Below, in pieces: positions 11,069 to 19,341 of a stretch of 34,687 nt of DNA. This DNA comes from an uncultured Clostridia bacterium (lineage in GTDB: Bacteria > Bacillota > Clostridia > TANB77 > CAG-508). The position numbers and the translations under genes are program-made. A model generated the notes under the pieces. It saw only the letters and a list, made by a program, of their open reading frames with translations, had not been told where the DNA came from and ran no database searches. Positions within the stretch are counted from its first letter, which is position 1. Every line of letters begins with the position of its first letter. The DNA lies in NCBI GenBank assembly GCA_947599995.1, contig CANQFW010000003.1, positions 1 to 34,687 on the forward strand. The letters run 5' to 3'.

Positions 11069-11866
11069 TTATCTGTTTTTAAACGTTACATCTTTATTTG
11101 GAATGTACTTTACAACTTCAATATTACTGTTCATACTTCGCTTACACATACAATTATATACCTTATCACGTAACTCCTTTTTTTGATCTTTTGAATTTAA
11201 ATTTTTATTAGCAAAAAATGGCCCATCTATATATGTTACAATTCTTACCTTTTTCTTATTTTTCCCATAGCTTTGATATGTATTTGTCATACAATATGTG
11301 GCTTTTTCAAGCTCTACTGGATATTTAAAAGACACATCTTTAAAAGGTCTTATTTTAGTATAATATGGCCAAATATGTGCTTCTGGGTAAATTGTTATTG
11401 AATGTTTTTTTTCTATGTGATACTTTATAGATTTTAAAAAGTTCTTCATTCCATCTTTTTTGTTTGGAATTGGTATAGCTCCAAATAATTGAATACTATT
11501 TCCTAAAAACTTCATTGATACATTCTCTGGATTCACTATAAAATGATTTCTTTTTGGGTATACTGGCAAACTTGGAATAAAAACATCTGCAAATGGCTGC
11601 GTATGATTTACGTATATAAAATATCCATCTTTTTTATACTGTTTCAACTTCTCTTTTCCTATATATTTTATTCTAAATTTTAATTTTCCATATAAAATTT
11701 TAATAGGCATGCTTAATATATTTTGAATAAAAAAAGAGCAAAAATCCCATAAGGGATTTTTATGTATGTATTTATAGTTTTTATCTATTACCCTAGGGAC
11801 TATATTTGCTCTAGAAAATTCATCATTTAGTTCGTCATTATAATAATAAACTTCTTTTTTTTTCAT
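11069..11866 (-). CDS. PlsC-like 1-acylglycerol-3-phosphate O-acyltransferase family protein
   Basis: YFIYVNHTQPFADVFIP, HFIVNPENVSMKFLGNSIQLFGAIPIP, ITIYPEAHIWPYYTKIRPFKDVSFKYP. Confidence 0.85.
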   Translation of the reverse strand: MKKKEVYYYNDELNDEFSRANIVPRVIDKNYKYIHKNPLWDFCSFFIQNILSMPIKILYGKLKFRIKYIGKEKLKQYKKDGYFIYVNHTQPFADVFIPSLPVYPKRNHFIVNPENVSMKFLGNSIQLFGAIPIPNKKDGMKNFLKSIKYHIEKKHSITIYPEAHIWPYYTKIRPFKDVSFKYPVELEKATYCMTNTYQSYGKNKKKVRIVTYIDGPFFANKNLNSKDQKKELRDKVYNCMCKRSMNSNIEVVKYIPNKDVTFKNR

Positions 11867-11967
11867 TGCTATTTATTTGTATTATTAGAAGATAATACAT
11901 TCTCCTTCTATATATTTATTCGTAGATTTAATGCAAAATAATTTATAACATTATAATCAAATTTAGT

Positions 11968-13776
11968 TTATATTTTTTCTTCCTCTAAATGTTTTTTCTC
12001 CGTACTGTACTCCAACGGAATTTTGTAAAAGTCTTCATAAATTTGTTTCCAAATCTCAGCATTTTTTTCTCTCATAATGTTTGCATTTTCTTTTTCAGAT
12101 AATTTTTCATTTGGGTAAATTGGTTTTTCAATATTTATAATATATTCTTGTACGAAAAATCCATCTTCTCCTATTATATTACTGTCTTGCATTGTTATAA
12201 AAATTGGGATGACTGGGACATTATTTTTAGCAGCAAATTTATATGCACCTATTTTTAGTGGCTTTGGTTTTTTATAATTCCACCACATACTTTGTTCTGG
12301 ATATATAAGTATAAAATCTTTTCTTTGTAATATGCTATCTACCGCTCTTAAAAACTCCTTCATTGTTTCAATATTGGAGCTTAATGGTAGAGTATCACAG
12401 TTTCTAAAGAAAAATCCATATAATCCTGGAAAATTAGTGTAATTTCCTTCTCTTATTACTTTATATAGTTTTTTCTCCTTGTCTTGACCAGCTTCTCTAA
12501 AAGTTTTTTCTATTGCAAATGAATCGAATGGATTGAAATGATTACATGTTATAATTGCTCCTGATTTAACATTTTTCAAATATTCAATCCCCTTTATTTC
12601 TTTTATAATTAATTTATTATCATTTAATAAATCATCTAAAAATTTTTTTCCCATACGGTTAGCAATTATATTTTTTATTCTACTTGAACTCTTTTTTTGA
12701 AGATAGTCTACTTCTCCTGGATTTAAAGGTATTGTTGGTGGGTCATCTTCAACATCTATATCAAATGTTCCATTTTTCTCATATTCTTCTATCTTTTTTA
12801 GAATTTTCAATCTTTCTTCGGATTTTTCTATTTCATTTCTTCCTTGGTAAAATCTTCTGTCATCTCCTACACAAGATGTTTCCATTTTTGCTAGTTTTTG
12901 AAGGTTTTTATATTGCTCCATGTCTCTAAATTTTTCTTGATCCGTATATGATTGCTTCATATTGATTAAATCATCATTGAACTCCGTTTTCTTTGCATAA
13001 TTCCAAAAATATTCTTGATATAAAACATTATCAAAATGACATGGTTTATATATTAAATTATAGTGTATTATTTTTATATCTTTTTCTTTTATTTCATCTG
13101 TAGGTATTGGCATTCTATCCCATACTTTACTAATTATCTTAGTTCTACCTTTGCATAATCTATTTAAATAGTCTTGGTCTTGTGCAACAGTAAATTTTAT
13201 AGATTCTAGTAAATATAAGAATTTTGCCTGAAAATCAAATTTTCTCATTTCATCTAAATTCATTAGTAATATTCCTGCATTAAAATAATTCTCGTGTTTT
13301 GCAACTCCTACTACCCTTTCTGCATAATCAGAGAAAATTTCTGAATTTTGTATAACATCATCTGGAGCTGCTGCAATTAAATTTTCTTCTACATCCATAT
13401 TATATAATTCTGAAATATCTCCTAAAACAACAATATCACTATCTAGATATATTGCTTTATTATATTGTGGATATAAATTCGGAATAAATAATCTATAATA
13501 TGTTGTTTGAGTATAGTAATCTCTGGTATATAATTTGTCTTTTACTTCTTCTATATAATAGTTTAAATCTACAAATTCTATTTTTACATTATCTCTTTCA
13601 TATTTTAATATTTTCTTTTTATTCCCTTCAGTGATATTTGTGTATAATATTTTTATTGCGTAGTTGTAATCTTTTGATGCATTTTCTATTAAAGATTCTA
13701 ATGCTACTGCTAAAAATGGTGCATATCCATCATCTACTGCAAAAAATATCGGTATTATTTCATTATCTTTTTCCAT
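11968..13776 (-). CDS. Fusion protein: N-terminal GT8 glycosyltransferase plus C-terminal PlsC-like acyltransferase
   Basis: N-term: IPIFFAVDDGYAPFLAVALESL, AIYLDSDIVVLGDISELY (DxD), FNAGILLMNL; C-term: ITCNHFNPFDSFAIEK (NHX4D), FILIYPEQSMWWNYKKPKPLKIGAYKFAAKNNVPVIPIFITM. Confidence 0.9.
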   Translation of the reverse strand: MEKDNEIIPIFFAVDDGYAPFLAVALESLIENASKDYNYAIKILYTNITEGNKKKILKYERDNVKIEFVDLNYYIEEVKDKLYTRDYYTQTTYYRLFIPNLYPQYNKAIYLDSDIVVLGDISELYNMDVEENLIAAAPDDVIQNSEIFSDYAERVVGVAKHENYFNAGILLMNLDEMRKFDFQAKFLYLLESIKFTVAQDQDYLNRLCKGRTKIISKVWDRMPIPTDEIKEKDIKIIHYNLIYKPCHFDNVLYQEYFWNYAKKTEFNDDLINMKQSYTDQEKFRDMEQYKNLQKLAKMETSCVGDDRRFYQGRNEIEKSEERLKILKKIEEYEKNGTFDIDVEDDPPTIPLNPGEVDYLQKKSSSRIKNIIANRMGKKFLDDLLNDNKLIIKEIKGIEYLKNVKSGAIITCNHFNPFDSFAIEKTFREAGQDKEKKLYKVIREGNYTNFPGLYGFFFRNCDTLPLSSNIETMKEFLRAVDSILQRKDFILIYPEQSMWWNYKKPKPLKIGAYKFAAKNNVPVIPIFITMQDSNIIGEDGFFVQEYIINIEKPIYPNEKLSEKENANIMREKNAEIWKQIYEDFYKIPLEYSTEKKHLEEEKI

Positions 13777-13838
13777 TTATGAGTCCTCTTTCCTTTTTTT
13801 AAAGCATAGATTATTTTAGGCAATAAATACATGACTTT

Positions 13839-14690
13839 TTATCTTCCTTCAAATTCAACCTGCTTCTTTCTATTATTATATATTTCTTTCAAATTCAAAT
13901 ATTCATTTAAATCATCATCAAAATAATAGCATTTTAATACTTTATGTACTTGGTCCACATTCCATTGTTTAAAATTTTCTATATATGGATAGGGGCGAAA
14001 TATTAGTCTTTTACAGAAGTGACAAATCACTGTGTCCTTTTTATTGAATTTAGATTGCTCATTATATATTCTCGGCAAAATTTTTTTCTTAGTTGTTGAC
14101 CAAAATATTGCATCTTGATCAGCAAAAAGTAGCTTTTTTGTTTTTATCAATTTTCTCGCTTTCTCTAAAAGTCCTGTTTCTTTTATTTTTTTGATATTTA
14201 ATAAAAGCATTCCTGCATTTATGTAGTCATGTCTAATAAACCAGCGCCCGTACTTTTCTTTTACTGCTGCATATTCATATTCTTCTATATTAATATTATA
14301 CAATTTTGATATATCGTCCCCTACCATTATATCTATATCTAAATATAATATTTTATCTGGTATAATATCTATTTTATCTGCAAGCAATCTGAGTAGTGTA
14401 TATGGAGTACAATATGCGGTTTCATTTGCACAGTTTTTGAATTCTTTTTCATAAATATCTGTCACATCTATTTTAGTTACATTGTTTTCTTTTCTCTTTG
14501 ATTTGACAACCTCGTTTAAAAATGTTATCTGTTCGTCTGTTATGCTTTCATATTCTGATTTTAATCTTGTAGCACACATTGTAAAAATGTAGATATTTAT
14601 TGGTTCTTTAGTTCTATTTGTTATAGAGATTAATTGTGTTAGTGCTCCATCAAATACTTTTTTATTTCCACATAATAATATATTTACCAT
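13839..14690 (-). CDS. Glycosyltransferase family 8 protein
   Basis: KILYLDIDIMVGDDISKLYNI (DxD), YINAGMLLLNI, FADQDAIFWST, CHFCKRLIFRPY. Confidence 0.85.
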   Translation of the reverse strand: MVNILLCGNKKVFDGALTQLISITNRTKEPINIYIFTMCATRLKSEYESITDEQITFLNEVVKSKRKENNVTKIDVTDIYEKEFKNCANETAYCTPYTLLRLLADKIDIIPDKILYLDIDIMVGDDISKLYNINIEEYEYAAVKEKYGRWFIRHDYINAGMLLLNIKKIKETGLLEKARKLIKTKKLLFADQDAIFWSTTKKKILPRIYNEQSKFNKKDTVICHFCKRLIFRPYPYIENFKQWNVDQVHKVLKCYYFDDDLNEYLNLKEIYNNRKKQVEFEGR

Positions 14691-14763
14691 ATTTTCCTCT
14701 TTTATTTTAAAATCTCTATTAGTATACTTTTTTTTTTATTAATTGTCAAGTTACATAAAATAT

Positions 14764-14830
14764 GCTTTTCACTACATATTACCTGGTAAAAAGTTAGTTT
14801 AACCAGTAACTAAAATTTGTAGTGAAAAGC
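14764..14830. repeat. Nested imperfect palindrome (intergenic)
   Basis: Outer arms GCTTTTCACTACA / TGTAGTGAAAAGC (13 bp perfect, 14764-14776 and 14818-14830); inner arms TTAC(C)TGGT / ACCAGTAA. Confidence 0.85.
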
Positions 14831-14836
14831 TTATGT

Positions 14837-15686: not shown

Positions 15687-17561
15687 TTATTCTAATTCAA
15701 ATACTCCTGTATATAATTTATAATATTGTCCTTTTTGATTAATTAGATCTCCATGATTTCCTCTTTCTATTATTTTGCCTTTATCCATAACCATAATTGC
15801 TTTTGAGTTTCTTACTGTTGAAAGTCTATGAGCTATTACAAATACCGTTCTTCCTTCCATTAAATTATCCATTCCATCTTGAACTATTTTTTCTGTTCTC
15901 GTATCTATACTTGAAGTTGCTTCATCAAGTATCATTACTGGTGGGTCACAAAGAGCACATCTTGCAATTGCCAAAAGCTGTCTTTGCCCTTGAGACAAGC
16001 TTGCTCCATCTCCCGAAAGTTCTGTATCATACCCGTTTGGAAGTCTAGTAATAAAATCATGTGCGTTAGCAAGTTTGCTAGCTTCTATTACTTCTTCATC
16101 AGTTGCATCTTCCTTTCCATATTTTATGTTATCCTTAATTGTCCCTGTAAATAAGTGAGTATCTTGTAAAACCATTCCAAGAGAAAATCTTAAATCCTCT
16201 TTTTTTATTTCATTTATATTTATTCCATCATATATAATTTTGCCATCTTTAATATCATAAAAACGATTTATTAGATTTGTAATTGTAGTCTTTCCTGCCC
16301 CTGTTGCTCCAACAAATGCAATTTTTTGTCCAGGTTTTGCATATAGGCTAATGTTGTGTAATACTTTCTTATCTTCTTCATAGCCAAAATCCACATTCTT
16401 AAATTCTATATTTCCTGCTAAATTTATATATTCTACTGTGCCATCTGAATGAGGATATTTCCATGCCCATTTATTTGTCCTTTTCTTAACTTCTATAAGT
16501 TTTCCATTTTCTTCTTTTACATTTACTAAACAAACTTTACCTTCGTTTTTTTCAGGTTCTTCATCCATAAATTCGAATATTCTTTTTGCTCCTGCTACTG
16601 CCATAACAATTGAATTTAATTGTCTAGAGACTTCATTTATTGGTCTTATGAAAGTTTTACTTAGTTGCAAAAAGGCAACTATTAGGCCTACTGTCACATT
16701 TCCTATTCCATTCACTGCAAGTAGACCTCCAGCTATTGCAAGTACTGCATATAATGTATTTCCAAGATTTCCATTTACTGGTCCTATACAGTTTACAAAT
16801 TTATTTGCATTATAAGCATTTTCTGCCAATTCATCATTTAATTTATCAAATTTTTCTTTTGCTCTATCTTCATAACAAAAAACTTTTACAACCTTTTGTC
16901 CATTTATCATTTCTTCAATATAACCATTTAATTTGCCAACAGATTCTTGTTGTTTAATAAAATATTTTCCGCTTCTAGATGTCATAAATTTTGTTACTGT
17001 TAGTATTATTCCCAAAAATCCTAAAACAACTAATGTTAAATAAATGTTAGTCACTACCATTGAAACAAATATTACCACTATTGTTATAATTACAGAAAAT
17101 GTCTGAGGTATACTTTGAGATAACATCTGACTTAACGTATCTGTATCATTTGTATATCTACTCATTATATCTCCATGTGAATGAGTATCAAAATATCTTA
17201 TTGGAAGATTTTGCATTTTTACAAACATTTCATCACGAATTTGTTTTAAAGTTCCTTCTGAAACTTTAACCATTAATCTACTTGATAAAAATCCTGCAAT
17301 AACTCCCACTCCGTAAATTAATGCCATTGTTATAATTGCCTTAATAAGTAGACTATATGTAGGATTTTGACTTCCAACAAGAGGAATTATATAATCATCA
17401 ATTAATGTTTGCAGATAAAGATTTGCAGCAACCGATGATGCAGTACTTAGTAAAAGGCTGATAATTACAATAAATAGTCTTAATTTATAGTTTCTAGCAA
17501 GATATTTAAAAACTCTACCTAAAACCTTAAAATCTATTCTTCCTTTTTGTTTCTCCTTCAT
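15687..17561 (-). CDS. ABC transporter permease/ATP-binding protein (exporter half)
   Basis: Walker A GATGAGKTT, signature LSQGQRQLLAIARC, Walker B PVMILDEATSS, H-loop IAHRLST. Start at MKEKQKGRIDF (17561) with upstream GGAAAGAAATTAATA preferred over 17624. Confidence 0.95.
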   Translation of the reverse strand: MKEKQKGRIDFKVLGRVFKYLARNYKLRLFIVIISLLLSTASSVAANLYLQTLIDDYIIPLVGSQNPTYSLLIKAIITMALIYGVGVIAGFLSSRLMVKVSEGTLKQIRDEMFVKMQNLPIRYFDTHSHGDIMSRYTNDTDTLSQMLSQSIPQTFSVIITIVVIFVSMVVTNIYLTLVVLGFLGIILTVTKFMTSRSGKYFIKQQESVGKLNGYIEEMINGQKVVKVFCYEDRAKEKFDKLNDELAENAYNANKFVNCIGPVNGNLGNTLYAVLAIAGGLLAVNGIGNVTVGLIVAFLQLSKTFIRPINEVSRQLNSIVMAVAGAKRIFEFMDEEPEKNEGKVCLVNVKEENGKLIEVKKRTNKWAWKYPHSDGTVEYINLAGNIEFKNVDFGYEEDKKVLHNISLYAKPGQKIAFVGATGAGKTTITNLINRFYDIKDGKIIYDGININEIKKEDLRFSLGMVLQDTHLFTGTIKDNIKYGKEDATDEEVIEASKLANAHDFITRLPNGYDTELSGDGASLSQGQRQLLAIARCALCDPPVMILDEATSSIDTRTEKIVQDGMDNLMEGRTVFVIAHRLSTVRNSKAIMVMDKGKIIERGNHGDLINQKGQYYKLYTGVFELE

Positions 17562-17610
17562 TATTAATTTCTTTCCTTTCTTATGCACGAATTGGATTGT
17601 AATTCTTTTT

Positions 17611-19341
17611 TCAACCCTCTTCATCTTCTTTTACTTGTGAATAATACACCTCTTTGTAGATCTCATTAGAGTCAAGCAATTGCTTATGTGTTCCTATTCC
17701 ATTTATTTTACCATTGTCTAAAACAATTATTTTATCAGCATCTTCTACTGATGAAATCCTTTGAGCAATTATAATTTTTGTTATATTTGGAATATTTTCT
17801 TTGAATGCTTTTCTAATTAAGCTTTCTGTTTTAGTATCTACTGCACTTGTAGAATCATCTAAAATAAGTATCTTTGGATCTTTTAATAAAGCTCTTGCAA
17901 TACATAGTCTTTGTTTTTGTCCACCTGATACATTGCTTCCTCCTTGTTCAATGTAAGTGTCGTATCCTTTTGGAAATGTTTTTATAAATTCGTGTGCCTG
18001 AGTTAATTTACATACATTTTCTATTTCTTCATCTGTGGCATCTTCTTTACCCCAGCGTAAGTTTTCTTTTATTGTACCTGAAAATAGTTCATTCTTTTGT
18101 AACACCATTGCAACTTTGCTTCTTAAAGACTCAATATCATAGTCTCTAACATCTACTCCAGCGACCATTATTTTTCCACTTGTTACATCATAAAGCCTTG
18201 GTATTAATTGTACTAAAGTAGATTTTGATGAGCCTGTCCCACCAATTATTCCAACTGTTTCTCCTGACTTTATATTTAAATTTATATCTTTTAGACATGA
18301 TTTGTTTTCATCGTTTACATAACTAAAATTAACATTTTCAAAAACAATAGAACCATCTTTTACTTCTTTTATTGCATTTTGTTTATTTGTTAAATTACTT
18401 TTTTCGTCCATTAGCTCCACTATTCTTTCACCTGATGCTCTTGAAATCATTATTGTAACAAGTACCATTGAAAGCATCATTAAAGACATTAATATTTGCA
18501 TAGTATAGGATATTAAACTTGTGAATTCTCCTGTTGTTAAATTGTTTTGGACAATTTCCTTTCCTCCAAACCATGATATAAGTACTATAATTGCTGCAAC
18601 TGTAAATTGCATCAATGGATTGTTTAATGCAACTATTCTTTCAGCTCTTGAAAATTCTTTATATATTAATTCAGATGTTTTATTAAATTTTTCTATTTCT
18701 TTGTCTTCTGTTACAAAAGATTTGACAACTCTAATTCCTCTTACATTTTCTTCAACAGTATTATTAAGTTTATCATATATCGAGATTGCTCTTTCAAATA
18801 TTGGATGTGCTTTTGTTGCGATAAAATATAAGCCAAATCCTAATAATGGAACAGCTATTAAAAATATTAATGCAAGTTTTATATTTATTACAAATGTCAT
18901 TATTAATGAGAATATAATTATAAGTGGTGCTCTTACAGCCATTCTTATTATCATTTGAAATGCCATTTGTATATTATTTATATCTGTAGTATGTCTTGTT
19001 ATAATACTTGAAGTAGAGAATTTATCAATGTTTGAAAAAGAGAAGTCTTGTACATTATAATATATTTTTCTTCTAACATTTTTTGCGAATCCAGCTGACG
19101 CCTTGGCTGAATAATCTCCTGATTTTACTCCAGTATATATTGCTATAAATGAACATACAACGAGTAGTATTCCTATTGCAATAATCACTTTACTATTCCC
19201 CTTGTTTATTCCATTATCAATTAAGAATGCCATTAAAAATGGAATTATAACATCAAATGCACATTCAAATCCTACAAATAATGGTGTTAACATTGTTTCT
19301 TTTTTATATTCGCCAATACATTTTGCGAGTTTTCTTATCAT
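17611..19341 (-). CDS. ABC transporter permease/ATP-binding protein (partner half)
   Basis: Walker A-like GGTGSSKST, signature VSGGQKQRLCIARAL, DDSTSAVD; adjacent to the second ABC half. The D of DDSTSAVD in place of catalytic E suggests a degenerate site in a heterodimer. Confidence 0.95.
   Translation of the reverse strand: MIRKLAKCIGEYKKETMLTPLFVGFECAFDVIIPFLMAFLIDNGINKGNSKVIIAIGILLVVCSFIAIYTGVKSGDYSAKASAGFAKNVRRKIYYNVQDFSFSNIDKFSTSSIITRHTTDINNIQMAFQMIIRMAVRAPLIIIFSLIMTFVINIKLALIFLIAVPLLGFGLYFIATKAHPIFERAISIYDKLNNTVEENVRGIRVVKSFVTEDKEIEKFNKTSELIYKEFSRAERIVALNNPLMQFTVAAIIVLISWFGGKEIVQNNLTTGEFTSLISYTMQILMSLMMLSMVLVTIMISRASGERIVELMDEKSNLTNKQNAIKEVKDGSIVFENVNFSYVNDENKSCLKDINLNIKSGETVGIIGGTGSSKSTLVQLIPRLYDVTSGKIMVAGVDVRDYDIESLRSKVAMVLQKNELFSGTIKENLRWGKEDATDEEIENVCKLTQAHEFIKTFPKGYDTYIEQGGSNVSGGQKQRLCIARALLKDPKILILDDSTSAVDTKTESLIRKAFKENIPNITKIIIAQRISSVEDADKIIVLDNGKINGIGTHKQLLDSNEIYKEVYYSQVKEDEEG

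Follow-up and report, generated by a model that had tools for sequence, protein, structure and literature searches.

We investigated three adjacent minus-strand genes that combine family-8 glycosyltransferase (GT8) and PlsC-like acyltransferase domains, located in a 34,687-nt stretch of DNA from an uncultured Clostridia bacterium (contig CANQFW010000003.1; this whole stretch is referred to as the window). An earlier sequence-only reading had described three co-oriented genes, one of them a 602-aa fusion of both domain types, and had proposed a possibly undescribed glycolipid or acyl-glycan pathway. The open reading frames (ORFs) and their strand were found as described, and Pfam confirmed the domains. 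GT, a standalone GT8 glycosyltransferase of 283 aa (P0003; 13839..14690; PF01501, E = 1.4e-17), is followed after 62 bp by FUS, the 602-aa GT8-PlsC fusion (P0001; 11968..13776), and after a further 101 bp by AT, a standalone PlsC-fold acyltransferase of 265 aa (P0002; 11069..11866; PF01553, E = 7e-8). FUS comprises a GT8 domain (GTf; residues 9-245; 13042..13752; E = 3e-42) and a PlsC domain (ATf; residues 394-527; 12196..12597; PF01553, E = 1e-10). Structure prediction, one of the checks that had been suggested, yielded an AlphaFold2 (AF2) model with a mean predicted local distance difference test score (pLDDT) of 88.7. The score falls below 50 in a flexible linker (residues 308-314; 12835..12855), which coincides with the split points of relatives.

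About 30 bp ahead of the GT start codon lies a promoter-like TTGACA-N17-TATACT element (14721..14749, minus strand), which matches 11 of 12 consensus positions and is the best of 27 such sites in the region, their number not being above that in shuffles. A long hairpin just after the upstream M50 protease gene (14753..14836, minus strand; minimum free energy −26.4 kcal/mol, z = −4.67) has no T-run, so that it is not a classic terminator, and matched no Rfam family; it probably separates the transcript of the M50 gene from that of the cassette. The hairpin and the near-perfect promoter together fit a single transcription unit for GT-FUS-AT.

To place the cassette among its relatives, we used one scan of 84,980 genomes, which returned 452, and fetched and analysed the 80 best, nearly all of them Clostridia (one is labelled ‘Bacilli’). 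About 70 of these 80, on independent contigs, encode the whole fusion in one ORF, among them cultured Roseburia faecis M72 and a 3.86-Mb contig of Lachnospiraceae AC2029. These single-ORF relatives, with finished genomes among them, rule out a misassembled pair of genes, which the sequence-only reading had named as grounds for dismissing its proposal. The fusion is thus widespread, and our literature search found nothing on GT8-PlsC fusions and no characterised product. GT and AT accompany FUS in nearly all related loci, in the order GT-FUS-AT in the window's clade and AT-GT-FUS in Lachnospiraceae and Oscillospiraceae, with frequent overlaps of 4-8 bp. Long matches (E ≤ 1e-40) occurred in 17 of 391 genomes of a class sample and, among 300 genomes sampled from the phylum (other class members included), only in the window's own genome. 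Across the sampled genomes, the fusion is confined to Clostridia. Within the GTDB family the distribution is patchy, the GT8 module being present in 19 of 59 genomes when split and divergent forms are counted. One species carries GT, GTf and ATf joined in a single 875-aa protein (L057:7719-10346). A complete AT-GT-FUS set also lies on an unannotated ‘UNVERIFIED’ human-fecal ‘Bacteriophage sp.’ scaffold (L164:45-3603); we rejected phage cargo as the explanation, bacterial contamination being the probable one.

The fusion derives, as judged from sequence comparison, from an older module of four separate genes (GT, GTf, AT and ATf). Such an arrangement was found in five divergent relatives (L097, L098, L099, L101 and L103), and a midpoint-rooted tree places these four-gene forms outside the clade of fused genes. 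Nested within that clade are two split forms (L024 and L026), so the fused gene has also broken again. In the nested split relatives (L024, L026 and L155-L158), the break lies at about residues 308-316, where the FUS model has a pLDDT below 50. AT and ATf are sister paralogues, which points to growth of the module by duplication of both its GT8 and its acyltransferase part; for the GT8 part, we infer this from the mutual similarity of the two enzymes. In one genome (G052, locus L159), GTf and ATf lie on separate contigs, an arrangement suggesting that the two halves can work apart.

Both glycosyltransferases scored well above the PF01501 cut-off of 24.3 bits (145.4 for FUS and 64.6 for GT) and contain the DXD, NAG and DQ motifs. 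The DXD motif reads DSD in FUS (metal-binding D112/D114; 13435-13443) and DID in GT (residues 118-120; 14331-14339). The FUS domain carries LgtC-like FNAG and QDQD motifs, could be aligned with WbbM and LgtC, and retrieved both with Foldseek (3e-21 and 4e-18, respectively); for GT, the PDB yielded LgtC and GlyE as weak matches. These two are the sole GT8 proteins in the 1.38-Mb window assembly.

The two acyltransferases belong to the PlsC/LPLAT superfamily (42.0 and 32.8 bits against the PF01553 cut-off of 23), and the AF2 model of AT (pLDDT 88.9) has a PlsC fold, with PlsC (5kym), PatA and LpxM as its best PDB matches. Their motifs depart from those of canonical enzymes, with NHFNPFD, YPEQSMWW and NHTQPFAD as previously noted. 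ATf retains the HX4D spacing (NHFNPFD; 12523-12543) and has YPEQSMWW (12280-12303) in place of the block III motif FPEGTR. AT lacks the canonical spacing and shows HX5D (NHTQPFAD; 11585-11608) together with YPEAHIWPYY (11360-11389). All 80 FUS relatives carry YPEQSMWW unchanged, with NHFN/SxxD always spaced as HX4D, and all 71 aligned AT homologues share the HX5D spacing (NHT...D) and PEA(H/K)IWP. The HX5D of AT is thus a stable lineage trait. The EGTR block is replaced across the aligned homologues of both proteins but persists, as FPEGTR, in canonical PlsCs of the same family. In ordinary PlsC, EGTR is a phosphate-binding motif whose arginine is associated with glycerol-phosphate acceptors. 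That both AT and ATf have lost this arginine speaks for a different acceptor. Equivalent basic residues have been described in CmGPAT (PMC4792965).

Database annotation as 1-acyl-sn-glycerol-3-phosphate acyltransferases, in line with the PlsC fold, would make AT and ATf additional phospholipid enzymes that adjust phospholipid acylation while the GT8s act elsewhere. We consider this improbable, since EGTR has been lost family-wide, the window genome has a canonical, FPEGTR-bearing PlsC at another site, both proteins score 27-34 bits against the 103 of the lysophosphatidic acid acyltransferase model TIGR00530, and the fusion and GT8 linkage are conserved. Motifs and phylogeny led us to reject ordinary PlsC duplicates. 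The HX5D of AT and an HX4E in the ATf of two divergent relatives (L098 and L099) could also mean that the PlsC-like domains have degenerated as catalysts and serve as membrane anchors for the GT8s. This appears very improbable, as no aligned sequence deviates at the catalytic His or at the block III Glu. Moreover, in the sugar acyltransferase PatA the charge relay is provided by the block 3 Glu and the HX4D Asp is structural (PMC4792965), so altered spacing is not disabling in principle; by analogy, E162 of AT may take this role. Given the fold match of AT and the motif pattern, AT and ATf are candidate PatA-type enzymes that would acylate sugar hydroxyls.

The phylogeny of the acyltransferases ties them to lipid glycosyltransferases. 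AT and ATf form sister clades (support 98/91; 96/90 in a repeat tree) nested in a subfamily outside canonical PlsC. Relatives without the GT8 module encode a sister acyltransferase, with YPExxLWPYYxxIR in its nearest members. It adjoins a glycosyltransferase of the UgtP/monogalactosyldiacylglycerol (MGDG) synthase type in eight loci (L100, L104, L107, L108, L110, L112, L114 and L144; PF06925 over cut-off, PRK13609 with E down to 7e-49) and a GT4 enzyme in others (L106, L109, L111, L113, L116, L117 and L138-L142). In four of the former, a GT8 is itself fused to the MGDG-synthase/UgtP-type domain beside a single PlsC-like acyltransferase (L100:4529-6493, L104:4831-6573, L114:716-2692 and L144:1995-3935). 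In the Clostridia loci L129-L136, the sister acyltransferase is fused to GT4 in proteins of about 600 aa (L129:2583-4394, L131:2786-4570, L132:3856-5670, L134:2543-4336 and L136:3805-5751), the GT4 parts being shortened in L133, L137 and L146. Judged from sequence, the acyltransferase subfamily has here been joined to a lipid-type glycosyltransferase a second time, independently.

A flippase-like gene (PF03706/TIGR00374) lies immediately upstream of GT in 17 loci, and the window genome has one PF03706 gene on another contig, 47-56% identical to those of the 17 loci. Apart from this flippase, a Pfam scan of the neighbourhoods revealed no enriched partner family. In the window's clade, genes for SigE/SigK-like sporulation sigma factors neighbour the flippase gene or the module (L105:1940-2647; L031, L032 and L037). 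In a locus without GT and AT nearby, a CrtO-like ORF (PF18927; glycosyl-carotenoid acyltransferase) directly precedes GTf-ATf (L102:4379-4897). A glycosylated and acylated terpenoid or carotenoid of the staphyloxanthin kind, or another secondary metabolite, could be read from this locus as the target; the case is a lone one, genes for carotenoids or terpenoids show no enrichment around the loci, and we give this idea very little credence.

The prediction of a glycolipid pathway is well supported on comparative grounds by the acyltransferase phylogeny, the pairing with lipid glycosyltransferases, the loss of EGTR and the linked flippase-like gene. Specifically, we propose, with a probability of roughly 0.6, that the cassette is a self-contained pathway to an acylated diglycosyl glycerolipid of the cytoplasmic membrane. 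Its chemical steps, their order, the donor, the acceptor, the acyl position and the physiological role are inferred from families and motifs as follows. One GT8 would transfer a first or second hexose from a uridine diphosphate (UDP)-sugar to a diacylglycerol-type lipid in a retaining (alpha) linkage, and the GT8 domain of FUS would add the next sugar. In the manner of PatA acting on mannose, ATf and AT would then each transfer an acyl chain from acyl carrier protein or coenzyme A to one of the sugar hydroxyls. The resulting glycolipid, with three or four acyl chains, might in many relatives be carried to the outer leaflet by the PF03706 flippase. The earlier suggestion that sugar transfer and acylation share a substrate, drawn from the fusion alone, would be realised if FUS channels the newly glycosylated lipid to the acylation site. 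By packing the membrane, such a glycolipid may make it tougher towards bile, fatty and hop acids, all of them membrane-active. Conservation of the module, the fold of AT, the CrtO-like ORF and, as described below, hexSDF of C. difficile and the gene set around horA add to the case for this proposal.

Several observations weigh against this proposal. The flippase link is limited to one clade. The partner glycosyltransferases stay below the NCBIfam equivalog cut-offs (PRK13609, 167 versus 500 bits; GT4 models, about 60 versus 400-480), so that ‘acts on diacylglycerol’ is a family resemblance. Likewise, GT8 sequence does not decide the donor sugar or the acceptor. The window genome has no UgtP-type enzyme, so transfer of the first sugar by a GT4 or GT8 must be assumed. 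Some acyltransferase domains (AT with HX5D, the L098 and L099 ATf with HX4E) may be weakly active. Replacement of one system by the other counts in favour of the proposal, but with limits. Among the 59 genomes of the GTDB family, the GT8 module (19) and the other acyltransferase (15) never co-occur, with a hypergeometric P of 0.001 that ignores shared ancestry, and both acyltransferase types are found within the window's own genus. No significant mutual exclusion is seen at class level, where power is lacking (expected overlap 0.9, P = 0.40). Finally, PF04018 genes (undecaprenyl-phosphate translocase) near 9 loci may point to a polyprenyl-linked product.

These genes bear on a different scheme, in which the target is a polyprenyl-carried glycan of the cell-wall or teichoic type that the cassette either assembles or acylates; the PlsC domains would supply anchoring or modifying acyl chains. 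The GT8 relatives WbbM and LgtC do build surface glycans, and papers on beer-spoilage plasmids class four related genes under cell-wall biogenesis (PMC6533708). However, the PF04018 genes lie on the opposite strand and are clade-limited, no polymerase, priming transferase or polysaccharide operon is enriched near the 80 loci, and members of the acyltransferase subfamily are associated with lipid glycosyltransferases of the UgtP type and GT4. We therefore regard a polyprenyl-linked glycan as unlikely, though it is the most serious of the alternatives.

The plasmid genes just mentioned are the unfused relatives of the cassette. Searching plasmids with tblastn, we found the four-gene set around an ATP-binding cassette (ABC) transporter in 17 cassettes of Levilactobacillus, Pediococcus, Loigolactobacillus, Fructilactobacillus and Secundilactobacillus, 98.5-100% identical and some of them incomplete or ended by the record end. 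The diagnostic motifs are kept in the plasmid AT (NHTQPLGD and YPEAHVWPYY) and ATf (NHFSPID and YPEREMWFNYRKP), and the plasmid acyltransferases group in the four-gene clades alongside a Roseburia plasmid module. All four homologous units occur with their diagnostic motifs in the window cassette, two of them fused. A plasmid glycosyltransferase has reportedly been connected with hop tolerance in L. brevis (Feyereisen, 2020). On pPECL-8 the transporter is HorA, and the same genes consistently surround horA (PMC4394401). Four of the five genes around horA were expressed more than 3-fold above horA itself in beer, and their study was called for (RNA-seq; PMC3765258); in L. brevis, two glycosyltransferases and two acyltransferases were exclusive to the plasmids of beer spoilers (6 of 7; PMC6533708). 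The set has thus been on record since the 2000s as the conserved surroundings of horA (PMC4394401, PMC3765258, PMC6533708), and ‘undescribed’ cannot stand for the genes themselves. It does hold for their function, as we found no paper assigning a product to the four-gene set.

Going further, we tentatively suggest, at somewhat less than even odds, that gut Clostridia make an undescribed multi-acylated diglycosyl glycerolipid through a bifunctional enzyme, that in beer-spoiling lactic acid bacteria the same pathway, mobilised on plasmids beside horA, contributes passively to hop tolerance by remodelling the membrane, and that Clostridia have adopted more than once the strategy of fusing lipid glycosyltransferases (GT8 or GT4) to a single PlsC subfamily. 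If true, gut bacteria including cultured Roseburia faecis would harbour an unseen class of acylated glycolipid, and a gene set noticed around horA by brewing microbiologists for two decades would gain a concrete function. Bacterial glycolipids are common ligands of host immune receptors, which would make a new one in gut commensals of interest.

Several known systems resemble parts of the cassette. LgtC and the GT8 domain of WbbM share fold and active-site motifs with the GT8 domain of FUS but act on lipopolysaccharide or O-antigen and have no fused acyltransferase. PatA, the mycobacterial acyltransferase of phosphatidylinositol mannosides (PIMs), has the PlsC fold, departs like AT from HX4D catalysis and acylates a sugar hydroxyl of a membrane glycolipid (PMC4792965); it differs in its sequence (~10% identity to AT), its actinobacterial PIM acceptor and the lack of fusion to a glycosyltransferase. 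In C. difficile, the MGDG-synthase-like enzyme and MprF-like flippase of hexSDF make a glycolipid (PMC10128005), and UgtA/UgtB also synthesise glycolipids (PMC11898633). Dedicated glycosyltransferases for a clostridial membrane glycolipid recur here, as does a flippase (MprF-like in the hexSDF operon, PF03706 in relatives of the cassette), yet the C. difficile glycosyltransferases are of the UgtP/MGDG type rather than GT8, and hexSDF includes a deacetylase and no acyltransferase. In the loci of the GT4-PlsC and GT8-MGDG-synthase fusions, an acyltransferase of the AT/ATf subfamily is likewise joined to a glycosyltransferase or adjacent to one, but the glycosyltransferase fold is another and there is a single acyltransferase. 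The horA-flanking cassette (P. claussenii pPECL-8, L. brevis pUCCLBBS449_D) has the same four orthologous functions, GT, AT, GTf and ATf. There, GTf and ATf are separate genes, HorA is encoded between GT and AT, and the set is plasmid-borne in Lactobacillaceae. The three-gene run of the window includes no linked ABC transporter gene, and the nearest ABC genes (15687-19341) are a pair of their own past the M50 gene. In summary, the Clostridia cassette is a variant of the gene set already on record around horA but uncharacterised, with two of its four units joined in one protein.

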